A stretch of DNA of 63,783 nucleotides, taken from positions 1 to 63,783 of the forward strand of contig WHSV01000009.1 of the NCBI GenBank assembly GCA_009379915.1, given 5' to 3'. Shown in pieces: positions 49,835 through 57,550 of this stretch (the first letter of the stretch is position 1; every line of letters starts with the position of its first letter). The position numbers were made by a program, and so were the translations under genes. The DNA is from Actinomycetota bacterium (lineage in GTDB: Bacteria > Actinomycetota > CADDZG01 > WHSQ01). Below the pieces are notes generated by a model that ran no database searches, was not told the origin of the DNA, and worked only from the letters and a program-made list of their open reading frames with translations.

Positions 49835-50272
49835 GGCTGTCCTCTCGTGCGCCCAGCTTTGACATTCTGGCATCGAGGCGCGCGGCCAACCAGTGCCGCA
49901 AACCTCACGTTCCCGCACATAGGGTCCACCGGGCTTGGCGCAATGGCTTGGCGCAAGTCGAGCAGACTTCTCGCGCGAGATGTCCGTTCCTGAGAAGGGG
50001 TGGTCGGTGCGGTCGGTGCGGTCGGTGCGGTCGGTGCGGTCGGTGCCTACCACTACGACCAGTACGACCAGCGAAGTTCCCAGATACCTATCTCGAGCGC
50101 TGGGCGGGGGCAGCTCTGATCCGGGCGCTGCGGTCGGTGCGGTCGGTGCGGTCGGTGCGGTCGGTGCGGTCGGTGCGGTCGGTGCCTACCACTACGACCA
50201 GTACGACCAGCGAAGTTCCCAGATACCTTCTATCTGGAGAAAGGGCCCGGTGGCCACTGGAAACAACAATCT
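49835..50272. other. Intergenic region with direct repeats and minisatellite
   Basis: 438 nt. It contains a 10-nt direct repeat CTTGGCGCAA (49934-49943 and 49947-49956) near the likely promoter of the FAD oxidase and the double minisatellite unit described at 50002-50228. Open frames here encode only periodic Thr-Asp-Arg or Val-Gly-Ala and are not genes. Confidence 0.6.
50002..50228. repeat. Duplicated 9-bp minisatellite unit
   Basis: GGTCGGTGC repeated five times (50002-50046) plus a 43-nt tail (50047-50089), then a 42-nt spacer, then the same 9-mer six times (50132-50185) plus an identical 43-nt tail (50186-50228). The tail itself holds TACGACCAG twice. Each tail ends at a small hairpin (CCAGATA-CCTTC-TATCTGG at 50219-50237; AGATACCTATCT in the first copy). 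Confidence 0.85.
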
Positions 50273-51009: not shown

Positions 51010-52944
51010 CTAGCGGGTCGAAGCCGGCCGAAGGTAGCCCAGCATCCCTCCGGCGAGCAGAACCTCTCTTTCGCGCTGCAGTAGCTCGATGCCCAAATCG
51101 ATGATCGAGCCCGCACCGGTGCGGCAGCTCACCGACGCCGCTCCGTCCGCCACCGCGTCCCGGAGGTCCTCGATCCGCCACTCGTCCCCCACCGCAACCA
51201 GGTCATGATCGTCCCCGGACGCGAAGAGCAACGGAAGGATTCCCTGAGCGATCAGGTTCTGGCGGTGAATGCGAGCGAAGCTCTGGGCCACGATGGTCCG
51301 AATACCGAGATGCGATGCCGACAGCGCCGCCTGCTCGCGCGACGAACCCTGGCCGTAGTTGTGTCCCGCGACGATGATCCCACCTCCCCACTCGACCGCG
51401 CGGCTGTGGAACTCCGGATCGATCCTGCGGAACATGAACTCCGCACACGCGGGGATGTTCGACCACAGTGCAATTCCGAGCGCGCCGTCGGGGGCCATGT
51501 CTCCGGTCGACACGTCGTCTCCGAGCACGATGAGTACACGTGACTGCACGCTCGGTGCCACCGGCTGCGGAACCGGAGGCGGCACGATGTTCGACCCTCT
51601 GTGGATCTCGACCCGAGCGACTGTGTCCCCCGCCGCGGGCTCGATGATGTGACGGTCGACCACCTCGGGTGTGTAGGTCGGCGGGCCGACGGGCGGGACG
51701 ACGCCAAGACGGCGAGGATCCGTGATCACTCCCCGCAGCGCGGCCGCCGCGGCAACCGAGGGCGAACAGAGGTAGACCGCGTCACCCTCCGTCCCGCTTC
51801 GCCCCGGAAAGTTGCGGTTGAACGTGCGAACCGAAGGGACTCCCGCCGACGGAGCTTGGCCCACGCCGATGCACGGTCCGCAGACGGCCTCGAGCACGCG
51901 CGCGCCGGCCTCCAGGAGATCGCGGTAGACATCCGAGCGCGCGGCGGCATCGAGAACCTGACGCGAGCCCGGGCTTACAGTCAGGTCGACGTCACGATGC
52001 ACGGAGGCCCCTCGCAGGACGGCGGCGACGAGCGCCAGATCCTCGTACGAGGAGTTGACCGACGATCCCACGCACACCTGACCGACGGCAGTGCCCTCGA
52101 GCTCTGCCACTGGCACGACGTTGCCCGGCGAGTGTGGTCTCGCAATCAGCGGTTCCAACGACGACAGATCGAGGACCTCGACCTCGTCGTAGGTCGCTCC
52201 GGCGTCCGCCGACATCGAGACGAAGTCGTCGCCGCGCTTCTGAGCCGTCAACCACTCGCGCGTGCGCGCGTCGCTGGGGAAAACGCCGGTCGTGGCCCCC
52301 GTTTCGAGGACCATGTTGCAGATGGTCGCGCGCTCCATCACCGACAGAGTCGACACACCCTCGCCGACGAACTCGAACACCTTGCCGCGGCCGTCGCGTG
52401 TCCCGTAACGCCTCAACAACTCCAGGACGACGTCCTTGGCCTCGACCCAGCCGGGCAGGACTCCGCGCAACTCGACCGCGACGACCGACGGGCACGGAAT
52501 CCAGAAACCGTGTCCCGCGAGAGCGACCGCGACGTCGAGGCCTCCAGCACCCACCGCAAACATGCCCGCGGCCCCCGCCGTCGTGCTGTGCGAGTCCGCC
52601 CCGAGCAGCACGTCACCCGGGCGCGCGAATCGTTCCAGGTGAATGCTGTGCGAGATCCCGTTGCCGGCTTTCGAGCACTTGACTCCGTAGCGCGAGGAGA
52701 ATGACTGGAGAAAACGGTGCTCGTCGGCGTTCAACTCGTCCACCTGGAGCACGTTGTGGTCGACATACATGACGGCGAGTGGAACCTCGACTCGTTCGAC
52801 TCCGAGCGACTCGAACTGCATGTAGGTCATCGAGCCGGTGGCGTCCTCGATTAGTACCTGGTCCGGCTTCAGGTGAATCTCCTCGCCGGGTCGGAGTTCC
52901 CCGTCCACCAGATTCTTCGACAGAAGCCGGTGCGTCAGGTTCAC
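51010..52944 (-). CDS. Aconitate hydratase (aconitase superfamily, 644 aa)
   Basis: [4Fe-4S] hydro-lyase with all domains in one chain. Substrate/cluster motifs: VLLGADSHSTTAGAAGMFAVG, cluster Cys in VGQVCVGSSVNSS and EAVCGPCIGVGQ, and the swivel-domain loop HNYGQGSSREQAALS. At about 640 residues it matches the short LeuC/AcnA-like aconitases rather than the 900-residue type. GTG 52944 overlaps the stop of the lyase gene (GTGA). As the last gene of a catabolic operon with a citryl-CoA lyase homologue and a CoA ligase, its substrate may be citrate/aconitate or an analogue. Confidence 0.9.
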   Translation of the reverse strand: MNLTHRLLSKNLVDGELRPGEEIHLKPDQVLIEDATGSMTYMQFESLGVERVEVPLAVMYVDHNVLQVDELNADEHRFLQSFSSRYGVKCSKAGNGISHSIHLERFARPGDVLLGADSHSTTAGAAGMFAVGAGGLDVAVALAGHGFWIPCPSVVAVELRGVLPGWVEAKDVVLELLRRYGTRDGRGKVFEFVGEGVSTLSVMERATICNMVLETGATTGVFPSDARTREWLTAQKRGDDFVSMSADAGATYDEVEVLDLSSLEPLIARPHSPGNVVPVAELEGTAVGQVCVGSSVNSSYEDLALVAAVLRGASVHRDVDLTVSPGSRQVLDAAARSDVYRDLLEAGARVLEAVCGPCIGVGQAPSAGVPSVRTFNRNFPGRSGTEGDAVYLCSPSVAAAAALRGVITDPRRLGVVPPVGPPTYTPEVVDRHIIEPAAGDTVARVEIHRGSNIVPPPVPQPVAPSVQSRVLIVLGDDVSTGDMAPDGALGIALWSNIPACAEFMFRRIDPEFHSRAVEWGGGIIVAGHNYGQGSSREQAALSASHLGIRTIVAQSFARIHRQNLIAQGILPLLFASGDDHDLVAVGDEWRIEDLRDAVADGAASVSCRTGAGSIIDLGIELLQREREVLLAGGMLGYLRPASTR

Positions 52945-53768
52945 GGCGTTTCCGGCTCTACGTTCTCCAAGGCTCTGGCGTTCACCTCTTTGTAGAGACG
53001 CATTCCGATGGGGTGCTCGGCCTCCTCCGCGAGGTGACCGACGAGCCCTGCCGTCCGAGCCAGCAGTGCAAAGCCGCGCGCGAGCGTGGGAGGAAATCCA
53101 AGGTCGGCCAGCACCGCTCCGGCCGCGCCCGCTCCGTTGATGGGCAACGCCCTGCCCGTCGCCTTCTGTTGAGCGGCGGCGACGAACCTGAGCAGTCTGA
53201 GGTTCGGCCCCAGCAGGCCCACCTCCCGCGCAAGCTCGTAGAAGCGCGGCGTACGTGGATCGGTCTCGCGATGAACGGGATGGCCGAGCCCGGGAATCCG
53301 ATTGCCTGCGGCCAGCACCTTCTCCACCGCGTCCGCCGCCACCGCCTCGAGCGCGGAGTCATCCGACCGCCGGTCGTCGGGAACGGCCGCGAGGACGTCG
53401 TGCAGGAACCGCGCCGCGTCCTCGGCGGGTCCGAGAAACACGCTTCCACCACCGAGCAGTCCCGCGGCGATCGCTCCCTGCATCGCTTCGGGAGCGCCGG
53501 TGTAGGTCAGCCTCGCCGCCAGCGCGGTGGGCGTCAGCCCATGATCTGCAAGCGACACGAGCACGGCGTTGAACATCGTCGCCTCGGCCTCGGACGGTGT
53601 GCGTCCGGCGGCGAGCAGGAACGCGAGGTCCGTGAACGACATCCGGCCCATTACCTCGGAGGCGAGGTCGCGCCCTCGCACCGTGATGGAGTCGGGCGTC
53701 GCGTGACCGATCGACGACCTGAGCCAGTCCCCGGTTTCGGATGATCTCGGTTCGGAGGGTTCGCTCAA
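52941..53768 (-). CDS. Citryl-CoA lyase-like protein (citrate synthase family)
   Basis: Citrate-synthase-fold protein of 275 aa, the short form seen in citryl-CoA lyases. His motifs GLGHPVHRETDPRTPRF and the LPINGAGAAGAVLADLG region are present; the N-terminal small domain of true citrate synthase is reduced. It would cleave or form a CoA thioester of a citrate-like acid. TTG 53768 overlaps the ligase stop by 4 nt, with GGAG upstream. Synthase (forward) activity is the alternative. Confidence 0.85.
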   Translation of the reverse strand: MSEPSEPRSSETGDWLRSSIGHATPDSITVRGRDLASEVMGRMSFTDLAFLLAAGRTPSEAEATMFNAVLVSLADHGLTPTALAARLTYTGAPEAMQGAIAAGLLGGGSVFLGPAEDAARFLHDVLAAVPDDRRSDDSALEAVAADAVEKVLAAGNRIPGLGHPVHRETDPRTPRFYELAREVGLLGPNLRLLRFVAAAQQKATGRALPINGAGAAGAVLADLGFPPTLARGFALLARTAGLVGHLAEEAEHPIGMRLYKEVNARALENVEPETP

Positions 53769-55318
53769 GATTGCTCTCCGCCTGCGCGAGCGGGCTCGAA
53801 GTCGCTCTCTCTGTCACTGCGGTCTGTGGGCAGCTCGTGCTTCGCAATTCGACCCGTCGGAGTGTGCGGCAATTCCTCGACGGTCTCGAGATACCGGGGA
53901 ACCTTGAAGGGAGCGAGTCGTTCGGCGGCAAAGTCTCGCAGCTCGCCGAGCGAGACGTTTGCGTCGGCCTTGAGCACCACGAAAGCCTTTACCTCCTCTT
54001 CGGACAGCTCGGACGGAACACCGATCACCGCGGCCTCCTCGACATCGGGGTGAGCTTCGAGCGCGGCCTCGACCTCGACGGGAGAAAGGTTCTCGCCCCT
54101 GCGGCGGATGAGCTCCTTTCGGCGCCCCACGAATGTGAAGGTGCCGTCGTCGTTCACGGTGACCACGTCTCCAGTGCGCAGCCAGCCATCGGACAGAACC
54201 CTGTCGGTTTCCTCGGGCATCCCGTAGTAACCGAGCATGACCGCGGGGTTCTTCAACTCGAGCTCGCCCACACCTCCGACGCCGACCTCTCGGCCGTCCT
54301 CGACGACGCGCCCGTGATTTATCTCGCCCATCGTGGGGTGCTGACGCAGACTCCCGAGCGTCTCGAAGGGCCGGGTGCCCTTTCTCCAGATGAGAGCGTA
54401 CGGCGTTTCGGACAGCGCGTAGCCGCACACGATCTCGATGCCGAAGCGCCGCTCGATGGCGAGGTGGCGCTCCTTGGGCGGCGATGGGCCCGTGTAGCAG
54501 AGCCGCAGCGGGTTGTCTGCGTCGTCGTCGCGCTCGGGCTGTCGCATCAGGATCTCGATCATGGCCCCGATCGCGTTGAACTCGGTCGCGCCGTAGCGAC
54601 GAGCCGAGTCGAGGAATCCGCTTCCTGAAAAGCGCGGGAGCAGAATCAGTCCGGCGCGCGCCGCGACCGAACCGAGCATCGAATAGGCCGGGGCGTTGAT
54701 GTGGAACAACGGCAACGAAGTCATCAGGCGATCCGACTCGTCGAGCCCCATCCAGAAAGGAAAGCCAACGCCCGCCATCGCGTAGGCGCGCTGCGTTTGC
54801 ATCACCAACTTGGAGCGACCGGTGGTCCCGGACGTCGGGATCATGACGGCGACATCATCGGGACGAGCGGCGGGTGCCATCCGAGCCGCGGGGGCCTTCG
54901 CGAGGTCCTCGGCGAGCACCAATCGAGCATCGGGAGAGCGGTCTCGGACCGCGTCCCCCAATCCCGCGTCGCTCACGACGACGTGCGGCCGCACCTGATC
55001 GATGAGGCCCCCGAGCTCATCCGGACTGCTGGCGGGGTTGACGGCAACGATGGTCGCGCCCAGATGCACGGCCGCGAGCCAGGTGAAGAGGTAGTCGGGA
55101 GTGTTCCGCGCGGTAGCGAGGACCCGCCTATCGCGCCCGGCCCCCAGTTGGTCGAGCGCGTAGGCCACCGCGGATATGCGCTCGTACGCCTGCTCGTAGG
55201 TCCAGATCGAGTCCTCGAAGTACAGCCATTCCTTCGTGGGCGAGCCGGCCACGGCCGATTCGAAGAGGCCCGGGATCGTCGGCACGGTTGTTGTCTCGTC
55301 GTGCGATGAGCCGCTCAA
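53765..55318 (-). CDS. AMP-forming acyl-CoA synthetase
   Basis: Class I adenylate-forming ligase, 517 aa from TTG 55318 (4-nt overlap with the HxlR stop) or 506 aa from GTG 55285. ATP loop IPTSGTTGRSKLV, core ALSETPYALI, GDVVTVNDDGTFTFVGRRKELI hinge and the catalytic Lys in TPTGRIAKHELP. It activates a carboxylic acid as CoA thioester. Its place before the citryl-CoA lyase homologue suggests a citrate-like or aromatic-derived acid. Confidence 0.9.
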   Translation of the reverse strand: MSGSSHDETTTVPTIPGLFESAVAGSPTKEWLYFEDSIWTYEQAYERISAVAYALDQLGAGRDRRVLATARNTPDYLFTWLAAVHLGATIVAVNPASSPDELGGLIDQVRPHVVVSDAGLGDAVRDRSPDARLVLAEDLAKAPAARMAPAARPDDVAVMIPTSGTTGRSKLVMQTQRAYAMAGVGFPFWMGLDESDRLMTSLPLFHINAPAYSMLGSVAARAGLILLPRFSGSGFLDSARRYGATEFNAIGAMIEILMRQPERDDDADNPLRLCYTGPSPPKERHLAIERRFGIEIVCGYALSETPYALIWRKGTRPFETLGSLRQHPTMGEINHGRVVEDGREVGVGGVGELELKNPAVMLGYYGMPEETDRVLSDGWLRTGDVVTVNDDGTFTFVGRRKELIRRRGENLSPVEVEAALEAHPDVEEAAVIGVPSELSEEEVKAFVVLKADANVSLGELRDFAAERLAPFKVPRYLETVEELPHTPTGRIAKHELPTDRSDRESDFEPARAGGEQS

Positions 55319-55665
55319 CGCGCGTGCGTCTCGGCGTGCTCGTGCGGCGCGACCCAATCGTGGGCCCAGTCCTCGAGCTCGGTGATGACCGACTCGAGCG
55401 CCCGTCCTTTGTCGGTCAACTCGTAGCTCACGCCGACCGGCTGGGTGGCCTCCACACTGCGCGTGATCAAGCCCTCGATCTCGAGCTCCTTCAGCCGGAG
55501 CGAGAGCGACCGGTCGGAGATCTCCTCGATGTGAGTCGATATCTCAGAGAAACGCAACGGGCGGTACATGATGGCGCGCAGTATCGTGCCGCTCCATCTC
55601 TTGCCCACCAACTCGATGGCCTTTTGAAAGTGCGGGCAGAAGGCCTTGTCCGGACTGGTCGCCAT
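55315..55665 (-). CDS. HxlR-family transcriptional regulator
   Basis: A 116-aa winged-helix regulator: FCPHFQKAIELVGKRWSGTILRAIM, SEISTHIEEISDRSLSLRLKELEIEGLI and a C-terminal EDWAHDWV tail. Cys10 near the N-terminus is the usual redox- or quinone-sensing position in this family. ATG 55665 begins 2 nt after the dioxygenase stop. HxlR proteins next to ring-cleaving dioxygenases typically sense quinones or electrophiles, so it probably controls this operon. Confidence 0.9.
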   Translation of the reverse strand: MATSPDKAFCPHFQKAIELVGKRWSGTILRAIMYRPLRFSEISTHIEEISDRSLSLRLKELEIEGLITRSVEATQPVGVSYELTDKGRALESVITELEDWAHDWVAPHEHAETHAR

Positions 55666-55667
55666 GG

Positions 55668-56591
55668 CTAGCTCTGTGACTCTGCTCGGGGATCGGGCAG
55701 CGGAGTCAGGACTTCGGCGAGCTTGTCGCGCAGGTGCTCGTAGTCCGGAGGCAGAGCCAGACGCTGGCCGAGCGATTCGATCGGCTCGTCGACGGCGAAG
55801 CCCGGGCCGAGGGTGGCGATCTCGAAGAGCACGCCCGACGGCTCGCGGAAGTAGATGGACTTGAAGTAATAGCGATCGATGATCGGCGTGACGTCGGCTC
55901 CGGCCCTCCCGACCCGCTCGTGCCACGCCGTGTGCTCGTTCATCGGGGTCGCCCACGCGATGTGGTGCACGGTGCCCGCGCCGCTCAGACCCGGTTTGTC
56001 GGGCGCTTCGTCGTAGACGTAGGAGCCACCGCGCTGCTCGCCGCGCGCGCTCCAGGACGAGTCCGACTCCGCATCGAAGTTCATGGTCGAACCGAGGAAG
56101 TCCTTGCTCGCGGCGGGATCATTCGTGTACGCGCGCACGCCGTCGAACCCCTGCAGGGCGAACTCCTGGGGAATGGCCGGGTGGCGCGCGCTGAGCGGCT
56201 CGTCCGTCGTCTCGACCACCGCGAACTCGAGACCCAGGCCCTCGGGATCGTCGAACCGAAGCCTGTCGCCGTCGCGCTCGGTTGCGATGCCGTGGTCCCC
56301 GAGGCGCGCGGCCCAGAAGTCGAGGGCGTCGGTGGAGCCGACGCGCCAGGTGATGCGGTAAACCATGCCCGCTCCCGCGCGGCCGCGCGCCGCCTTGGGG
56401 TACTCGAAGAACGTGATGTCGGAGCCCGCCCCGCCCTCTTCGTCCGCGTAGAAGAGGTGGTAGACGGTCGGGTCGTCCTGATTGACCGACTTCTTCACGA
56501 GTCGGAGACCGAGCGTGTCGGAGTAGAACCCCACGTTCTGGGGAGCGTCGCCCGTGATTGCGGTGATGTGGTGGATTCCTTCCAGCTTCAT
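55668..56591 (-). CDS. Ring-cleaving dioxygenase (MhqO/VOC type)
   Basis: VOC-superfamily extradiol-type dioxygenase, 307 aa, first gene of the operon. IHHITAITGDAPQNVGFYSDTLGLRLVKKS at the start and GTVHHIAWATPMNEH with the C-terminal YFREPSGVLFEIATLGPGF carry the iron ligands (two His, one Glu). MhqO homologues open hydroquinone-type rings. ATG 56591 follows CGAGGAGGCAGC. Confidence 0.9.
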   Translation of the reverse strand: MKLEGIHHITAITGDAPQNVGFYSDTLGLRLVKKSVNQDDPTVYHLFYADEEGGAGSDITFFEYPKAARGRAGAGMVYRITWRVGSTDALDFWAARLGDHGIATERDGDRLRFDDPEGLGLEFAVVETTDEPLSARHPAIPQEFALQGFDGVRAYTNDPAASKDFLGSTMNFDAESDSSWSARGEQRGGSYVYDEAPDKPGLSGAGTVHHIAWATPMNEHTAWHERVGRAGADVTPIIDRYYFKSIYFREPSGVLFEIATLGPGFAVDEPIESLGQRLALPPDYEHLRDKLAEVLTPLPDPRAESQS

Positions 56592-56710
56592 GCTGCCTCC
56601 TCGACGCGTACGCGTGCCGGCTCGTTGGCTAACCTCTTGTAAGTAACTATAACCAGTGTCACAATCGGCCCCAAGAACGGTCCGAACGCCAAGCTCTAGG
56701 GGGGAAGGTT
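56592..56710. promoter_or_regulatory. Divergent promoter region dioxygenase operon / DinB-like gene
   Basis: AT-rich core TAAGTAACTATAACC (56640-56654), followed on the plus strand by TGTCACA (56657-56663) and GGTC 15 nt later, a possible ECF41-type site for the 56711 gene. The core probably carries the HxlR-controlled promoter of the operon. Confidence 0.35.
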
Positions 56711-57550
56711 ATGTCGATCGCCGACCAGGACACCTCACAGTGGGACGCCACCAACTTCGCCGCCAAGGACAACCTGCTGCGCGTGGTGCGCGAGGAGGCC
56801 GAGGGTTTCTTCGCCCTGGCCGAGAAGCCGGAGAACTGGGACTCGCCGACTCCCGCGGGGCACTGGCGCGTGAGAAACCTCGTCGCTCACATCGCCGACA
56901 CGACCGAGGGCTATCTCGAGCGCTTCGAGACCACGCGGGCCGGTGGGACGGCGGAGCCCCTCGCTCCCCTCGACCAGATGGCCGTAACCGCCGACAAGCG
57001 GGCTCAAGCACTCAGCGGTGCTCCACAGGACGAACAGATGGCGCGGTTGCGCGAGGACTTTTCGCGAGCGATGAAGATGTTCGAGGAAGTAAACGAGCAG
57101 GACTGGAGCAACTTCCTCATCACTCACGCGTACATGGGCCCCGTGCCGGCGTTCTTTTATCCCATCGGTCAGTTGATGGACTACGGTGTGCACGGCTGGG
57201 ACCTGCGCGAGGGACTCGGCCTGCCTCACTTCCTGAGCTCCGACGCGGCGGACCTGCTCGTGCCGTTCATGTTCGTGTTGTGGCAGGCGACAACAGACGT
57301 CTCGCGGCTCGGAGACGAAAGCCTCCAAGTTGGCGTGCGCGTCTCGGGGCGCAACGCGGGTACCTATCGGGTGACGGTCACAGACGAGGGCATGGCCTAC
57401 GAACCGGGGTCGGCCGACGATCTACCGGTCCTGATCGACTTCGATCCGGCCAGTCTCGTCCTCACGGCCTTCGGTCGCACCTGCTCGGGGACTCCGTATG
57501 GTGACCTCGACGCGGCCCGCAAGTTCGCCGGTCTGTTCTTCAGGATCTAG
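56711..57550 (+). CDS. DinB-superfamily (mycothiol maleylpyruvate isomerase-like) protein
   Basis: A 279-aa actinobacterial protein with an N-terminal MDMPI/DinB helical bundle (GHWRVRNLVAHIADTTEGYLERF; metal His residues also in FYPIGQLMDYGVHGWDLREG) and a C-terminal SCP-2-like domain (VGVRVSGRNAGTYRVTVTDEG, LIDFDPASLVLTAFGR). ATG 56711 follows GGGGGGAAGGTT. Related proteins use mycothiol as cofactor or transfer it. It may act on a product of the neighbouring dioxygenase operon. Confidence 0.85.
   Translation: MSIADQDTSQWDATNFAAKDNLLRVVREEAEGFFALAEKPENWDSPTPAGHWRVRNLVAHIADTTEGYLERFETTRAGGTAEPLAPLDQMAVTADKRAQALSGAPQDEQMARLREDFSRAMKMFEEVNEQDWSNFLITHAYMGPVPAFFYPIGQLMDYGVHGWDLREGLGLPHFLSSDAADLLVPFMFVLWQATTDVSRLGDESLQVGVRVSGRNAGTYRVTVTDEGMAYEPGSADDLPVLIDFDPASLVLTAFGRTCSGTPYGDLDAARKFAGLFFRI

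Follow-up and report, generated by a model that had tools for sequence, protein, structure and literature searches.

The window, a 63,783-nucleotide stretch of an Actinomycetota contig (WHSV01000009.1), carries a minus-strand operon of five genes, a sixth gene diverging from it, and a conserved 23-bp element in the region between them. Gene families were assigned from Pfam and NCBIfam hidden Markov model (HMM) searches, which gave matches to a glyoxalase/VOC dioxygenase, an HxlR regulator (PF01638), an AMP-binding ligase (PF00501 and PF13193), the citrate synthase C-domain/PRK06224 “citryl-CoA lyase,” and the aconitase PRK07229. The original prediction for this locus had described five minus-strand genes joined by three 4-nt overlaps and one 2-nt gap, and all of these open reading frames were found where it had placed them. 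The features, in the direction of transcription of the operon and followed by the divergent gene and the element, are the following:

55668-56591, minus strand: voc, VOC-fold ring-cleaving dioxygenase of the MhqO/PcpA type; start ATG
55315-55665, minus strand: hxlR, HxlR-family regulator, YodB/QsrR-like; start ATG, separated by 2 nt from the voc stop codon
53765-55318, minus strand: ligase, AMP-forming acyl-CoA ligase; start TTG, 4-nt overlap with hxlR through TTGA
52941-53768, minus strand: ccl, citrate-synthase-fold lyase homologue; start TTG, 4-nt overlap with ligase
51010-52944, minus strand: acn, aconitase-family hydratase (PRK07229); start GTG, 4-nt overlap with ccl
56711..57550, plus strand: mdmpi, mycothiol maleylpyruvate isomerase/DinB-type protein (MDMPI_N), divergent from voc; Pfam PF11716, E=5e-17
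56629..56651, minus strand: conserved 23-bp element TATAGTTACTTACAAGAGGTTAG, candidate HxlR operator; dyad CTTAC-N5-GT(A/T)AG

No sigma-70-like site turned up when the region was scanned with a promoter consensus, and terminator predictions there were at chance level. In agreement with the original prediction, which knew of no named pathway with this set of genes, a limited literature search (citryl-CoA lyase with hydroquinone or aromatic degradation) returned none, and the operon is real, conserved, and apparently undescribed.

Conservation of the operon and of the 23-bp element

Two further genera of the family (genomes G003 and G010) have voc, (hxlR,) ligase, and ccl in the same order with ~70% amino acid identity, and the linkage of these genes is therefore not a matter of chance. 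In G003, mdmpi diverges from voc-hxlR-ligase-ccl (~69 to 73% identity), while G010 has voc-ligase-ccl without hxlR. In a third genus (G014), the arrangement mdmpi/voc-hxlR-ligase can be followed until the contig stops inside the ligase gene, and G273, from outside the class, has a TrkA_C protein, an antiporter, the ligase, and ccl. The ligase is 69 to 70% identical to that of the window in G003 and G010 and 58% in G273, and mdmpi, which keeps its position in the relatives, is 69% identical in G003 and 61% in G014. No aconitase gene is part of the operons of G003, G010, and G273. The conserved core is thus made up of the dioxygenase, the ligase, and ccl, to which the genome of the window has added acn; of the five-gene unit originally predicted, it is the voc-(hxlR)-ligase-ccl part that is kept in relatives, with the aconitase outside the conserved operon there. 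Downstream of ccl, G003 has a TrkA_C protein followed by a K+/H+ antiporter. Such a pair adjoins ligase-ccl in two distant genera (L042 2349-4019; L058 11474-13140) and is reminiscent of electrophile-responsive antiporters.

Among structures in the Protein Data Bank (PDB), the HxlR product is nearest to YodB (5HS7, E=3e-21) and then to QsrR (E=4e-14), and its N-terminal, sensing-type Cys10 aligns with the Cys of both. Between mdmpi and voc, the 23-bp stretch is identical in the window and in G003, although the surrounding sequence has diverged. A search of 61 genomes with this probe, allowing up to three mismatches and using the reversed probe as a control, gave four matches, all of them adjoining hxlR, against none for the control. 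The copies in G014 and G002 have three mismatches each. The dyad CTTAC-N5-GTAAG is perfect in these two and has one mismatch in the window and G003. At the locus of G010, which has no hxlR, the element is not present either. The G002 copy is flanked by hxlR on one side and by a divergently transcribed YceI-family gene on the other (L167 5488-6502). We consider the element a candidate operator to which the HxlR protein would bind.

Residues of the three enzymes

The dioxygenase gave its best PDB matches to MhqO (3OAJ, E=4e-55) and PcpA (4HUZ, E=2e-29). In the phmmer alignment, its predicted metal ligands H8, H210, and E257 are identical to the His-His-Glu of PcpA, and so are all five second-shell residues of PcpA (His10, Thr13, His226, Arg259, and Tyr266). 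PcpA acts on substituted hydroquinones and requires a 1,4-dihydroxy pattern (PMC3727088). A hydroquinone-type compound is the best inference for the substrate. The connection to quinones suggested in the original prediction gains support from the likeness of the regulator to YodB and of the dioxygenase to MhqO and PcpA, and from the K+/H+ antiporter pair in relatives.

The product of ccl (NCBIfam NF004868, 318 bits) has the fold of the citrate synthase C-domain (PF00285) and is annotated as citryl-CoA lyase (PRK06224.1-5). Its AlphaFold2 model (pLDDT 91.5), built on an alignment of genome loci only, without plasmid sequences, has the citryl-CoA lyase of Hydrogenobacter as its nearest structure (6HXP; TM scores 0.76/0.81, 32% identity). 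In ccl, F111 stands at the position of the catalytic His274 (GSAHGG motif) and A213 at that of the catalytic Asp375 (LNVDGA), while H163 (the His of GxGH), R172 (the Arg of DPR), and a later Arg, R238, are retained. By motif and spacing, these positions correspond to His274, Asp375, His320, Arg329, and Arg401 of pig citrate synthase. Among 35 sequences compared, the catalytic His and Asp are lost together in 30 non-canonical homologues (one of which, L064, is partial, with the His site alone visible) and kept together in five (6HXP, L045, and L074-L076), and where the pair is lost the oxo-acid-side His, the DPR Arg, and the later Arg stay.

Because two key catalytic residues are lost, ccl probably does not act on citrate, and the name “citryl-CoA lyase” should for now not be applied to the non-canonical subfamily. 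Release of acetyl-CoA by this fold would therefore need another mechanism. There is debate about what Asp1026, the equivalent residue, does in ATP citrate lyase (PMC10115795), but the stand-alone lyase, unlike that enzyme, has only this domain.

The aconitase homologue (NCBIfam NF005558, 782 bits) retains the QGSSRE motif and CGPC (the Fe-S residues Cys421/Cys424), and at the third cluster position, Cys358 of aconitase (PMC8184944), it reads GSSVN and not GSCTN. Across the PRK07229 aconitases of the phylum (window, L046, and L090-L149), nearly all have this Ser (GSS for GSC), only L096, L141, and L144 keeping the Cys, and the other two cluster Cys are retained. In the recognition loop of the swivel domain, most homologues have YRSNIP or similar, and acn, starting at residue 492, has ALWSNIP. 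The Trp replaces a substrate-binding Arg found in about 50 other homologues, in a column that by our alignment would correspond to Arg580 of aconitase. Ten of 60 alignable homologues have Trp or Met (W/M) here, and six of these 10, against none of the 50 Arg loci, adjoin same-strand genes for a CoA ligase or transferase or a C-C lyase, a count that leaves out L148 (frameshifted alignment). The association has p=2.5e-5 in a table that still counts L148 as Arg, and few independent events lie behind it, as the W proteins are mostly one clade.

Both the orthologue of G003, which also has the Trp, and an M-type protein of G001 lie in operons with CaiB and an HMG-CoA lyase homologue. Operons of the acn-CaiB-HMG-CoA-lyase type (L090 6473-10529; L096 102-6642, where IclR and an MFS transporter are also present) seem to encode a catabolic route of their own, for C4-C6 diacids, and the operon at L148 has an additional PEP-mutase/isocitrate-lyase-family gene. 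The exchange of Arg for Trp, together with the CoA-activation and C-C-lyase contexts, suggests a substrate without the third carboxylate, such as maleate, citraconate, or mesaconate. In isopropylmalate isomerase, a recognition region of the small subunit sets substrate preference (PMC7308503), and by our alignment this region would correspond to the acn loop. Elsewhere, the genome encodes AcnA, a second PRK07229 protein, two LeuC proteins, and a full citrate synthase. A housekeeping role of acn in the citrate cycle was rejected, with AcnA on another contig.

Genomic contexts of the lyase subfamily

The non-canonical lyase subfamily is the most interesting part of the finding. Homologues of ccl were present in 134 plasmid records, and a scan of the genome collection, made with a single-protein query that reaches close relatives, found one. 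In many genomes, ccl and a CoA-activating enzyme lie beside intradiol, LigB, or VOC dioxygenases. The run IclR, CaiB, ccl, and then LigB or an intradiol dioxygenase is found in many genomes of the phylum, Rhodococcus, and Nonomuraea, and Martelella has IclR, LigB, an amidohydrolase, ccl, CaiB, and a C4-dicarboxylate transporter. An HMM check of the neighbors of CaiB-ccl that BLAST had labeled “intradiol dioxygenase” showed some of them to be LigB class III enzymes. Other members of the subfamily sit in acyl-CoA and TRAP/tricarboxylate-transporter clusters with no dioxygenase, and the subfamily is therefore not only aromatic.

In Rhodococcus rhodochrous BX2, a run of hpaB, catC, an intradiol dioxygenase, a catB-like gene, pcaD, ligase, and ccl is broken by one IS element; the ligase is 56% identical to that of the window, and the pair follows directly after pcaD. 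At this point of the route, a CoA transferase and a thiolase would be the usual enzymes. Neither the PcaIJ CoA transferase nor the PcaF thiolase was detected by Pfam and NCBIfam in the operon of the window, the rest of the genome not having been searched for them.

A plasmid of Burkholderia glumae has an intradiol dioxygenase, ccl, an aromatic hydroxylase, a CaiB CoA-transferase, leuC, and leuD in one run, with a ccl that likewise lacks the catalytic His and Asp, and in Caballeronia SBC1 leuC-leuD are near ccl-CaiB. The set of functions is thus met again in other make-ups, drawing on three families of dioxygenase, two kinds of enzyme for CoA activation, and two types from the aconitase family. 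The four-function route of the original prediction holds in that the functions belong together, recurring in non-orthologous form in B. glumae and partly in Caballeronia and Rhodococcus; its citrate-like substrate is not supported and is probably wrong. Two Rhodococcus plasmids have an orphan leuD-like gene, with no recognized leuC adjoining, beside ccl and dioxygenase genes (L051 9814-10449; L055 11228-11818).

Elsewhere in the window, two perfect arrays (50002-50046 and 50122-50185) of the 9-bp tandem repeat GGTCGGTGC lie close to where a berberine-type FAD oxidase gene starts.

Proposed pathway, alternatives, and known systems

Gene set, linkage, residues, conserved element, and recurrence of the function set are directly established, and from them we infer the chemistry, substrates, step order, and regulation of a quinone-responsive operon for hydroquinone ring cleavage and CoA-dependent breakdown, a reading that we favor tentatively, as plausible but short of probable. 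Bound at the 23-bp element, the YodB-like HxlR protein would keep hold of the divergent mdmpi/voc promoter and let go once its Cys10 is modified by an electrophilic quinone. The Fe(II) dioxygenase of the MhqO/PcpA type would then convert a (substituted) hydroquinone or hydroxyquinol to a maleylacetate-type beta-keto diacid, which the ligase would turn into a CoA thioester. The non-canonical ccl might cleave this thioester at the adjacent C-C bond, with acetyl-CoA and maleate, fumarate, or a methyl homologue as the products, and in some operons only, the aconitase-family enzyme would hydrate the unsaturated diacid to (citra)malate. This order, with optional hydration last, agrees with the gene order, with the pcaD context, and with the relatives without a hydratase, whose operons still make sense under it.

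Several points weigh against this reading. The reaction of ccl is its least certain step, as the protein has lost the two residues with which citrate synthase deals with the enolate of acetyl-CoA. We know of no well-established substrate of MhqO, and the operon has no aldehyde dehydrogenase, though unsubstituted hydroquinone would yield an aldehyde. Maleylacetate reductase is absent from the operon, neither it nor a thiolase having been searched for elsewhere in the genome. Finally, two aconitase-linked operons without ccl (those with CaiB and an HMG-CoA lyase homologue) fit a route in which hydration comes first.

Because of these acn-CaiB-HMG-CoA-lyase operons, the hydratase-first order is a serious rival. 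Ring cleavage would yield an unsaturated diacid, for instance citraconate or mesaconate, whose hydration would give a 2-substituted malate; after activation by the ligase, ccl would split this into an acyl-CoA and a 2-oxo acid, a scheme that comes closest to the original prediction but with C5-type acids. It would account for the related W/M-type aconitases beside CaiB CoA-transferase and HMG-CoA-lyase-family genes, for one related aconitase adjoining a PEP-mutase/isocitrate-lyase-family gene (a family that includes alkylmalate lyases), and for the retention in ccl of the oxo-acid-side His320, Arg329, and Arg401. Nevertheless, the ligase-ccl operons of G003, G010, and G273 have no hydratase, which makes the originally predicted action of an isomerase ahead of ligase and lyase doubtful, and the R. 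rhodochrous pair follows pcaD, whose product is 3-oxoadipate and not a malate; we regard this order as somewhat unlikely. Within the same pathway context, ccl could also act on the thioester or oxo acid by hydrolysis, tautomerization, or decarboxylation and not as a C-C lyase at all. In favor of this is the joint loss of His274 and Asp375, the residues of citrate synthase that polarize the acetyl-CoA part and (de)protonate it, with retention of those on the oxo-acid side. Yet the nearest fold is a citryl-CoA lyase, and in aromatic clusters that would otherwise have no CoA-dependent cleavage step, ccl is paired with CoA-activating genes, so that we judge it unlikely.

That acn is a passenger, co-transcribed by chance and without a role in the pathway, would explain why homologous operons of other genera do without it, but is improbable given its 4-nt overlap with ccl, the placement of the G003 orthologue with CoA-transferase and lyase genes, and the LeuCD genes that B. 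glumae and Caballeronia have in the vicinity of ccl and CaiB. Least probable by far is true citrate chemistry, in which citrate, methylcitrate, or another tricarboxylate would be isomerized and cleaved through a citryl-CoA-type thioester. The NCBIfam labels (citryl-CoA lyase and aconitate hydratase) point to it, but ccl has replaced both catalytic residues of citryl-CoA lyase, acn has Trp for the conserved substrate-binding Arg of the recognition loop, and the genome has its own AcnA as well as a full citrate synthase.

More broadly, and with still more reserve than the pathway itself, it is conceivable that this large, misannotated citrate-synthase-fold subfamily can, in the absence of the canonical His/Asp pair, cleave a C-C bond of acyl-CoA thioesters from ring fission by a new reaction. 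It would then take the place of thiolase (and of maleylacetate reductase) in an alternative, widespread lower pathway for aromatics, whose dioxygenases, enzymes of CoA activation, and hydratases of the aconitase family are interchangeable parts. Databases call such proteins citryl-CoA lyase, while nearly all those checked are without its known catalytic residues, and the gene contexts point to an unrecognized way, dependent on CoA and present in more than one phylum, by which products of aromatic ring cleavage are passed on, with a tie to quinone defense in this lineage. This offers a concrete set of substrates for enzymes now annotated into citrate metabolism, and would revise how ring-cleavage products enter central metabolism where the cluster is without maleylacetate reductase or thiolase genes.

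The locus resembles the MhqR/YodB quinone-response regulons of Bacillus subtilis (MhqO, CatDE, and YodB) and QsrR of Staphylococcus in its YodB-like regulator with an aligned sensing Cys and its MhqO-like dioxygenase. It differs in that regulator and dioxygenase share an operon with a CoA ligase, ccl, and an aconitase, which, to our knowledge, are not among the members of the Bacillus regulons. With the PcpA/LinE hydroquinone 1,2-dioxygenase pathways it shares the dioxygenase family and active-site residues, but those pathways process maleylacetate through maleylacetate reductase, whereas here the operon has a CoA ligase and a citrate-synthase-fold enzyme and no reductase. Fold and oxo-acid-side residues of ccl are like those of Hydrogenobacter citryl-CoA lyase (6HXP) and ATP citrate lyase, but ccl has Phe and Ala for the catalytic His and Asp and is linked to ring cleavage, not to the reductive citrate cycle. 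The maleate hydratase of the gentisate pathway (Liu 2015, as cited in PMC12294151) and the itaconate/citramalate gene clusters (PMC12290011) follow a shared logic, the hydration of a C4/C5 unsaturated diacid and cleavage by way of a CoA thioester; they use other enzyme subfamilies, and here a quinone-type dioxygenase and a regulator are added. To the beta-ketoadipate pathway (pcaD, pcaIJ, and pcaF), the likeness lies in the R. rhodochrous ligase-ccl pair right after pcaD, with the ligase in place of its CoA transferase and the ccl homologue in place of its thiolase.

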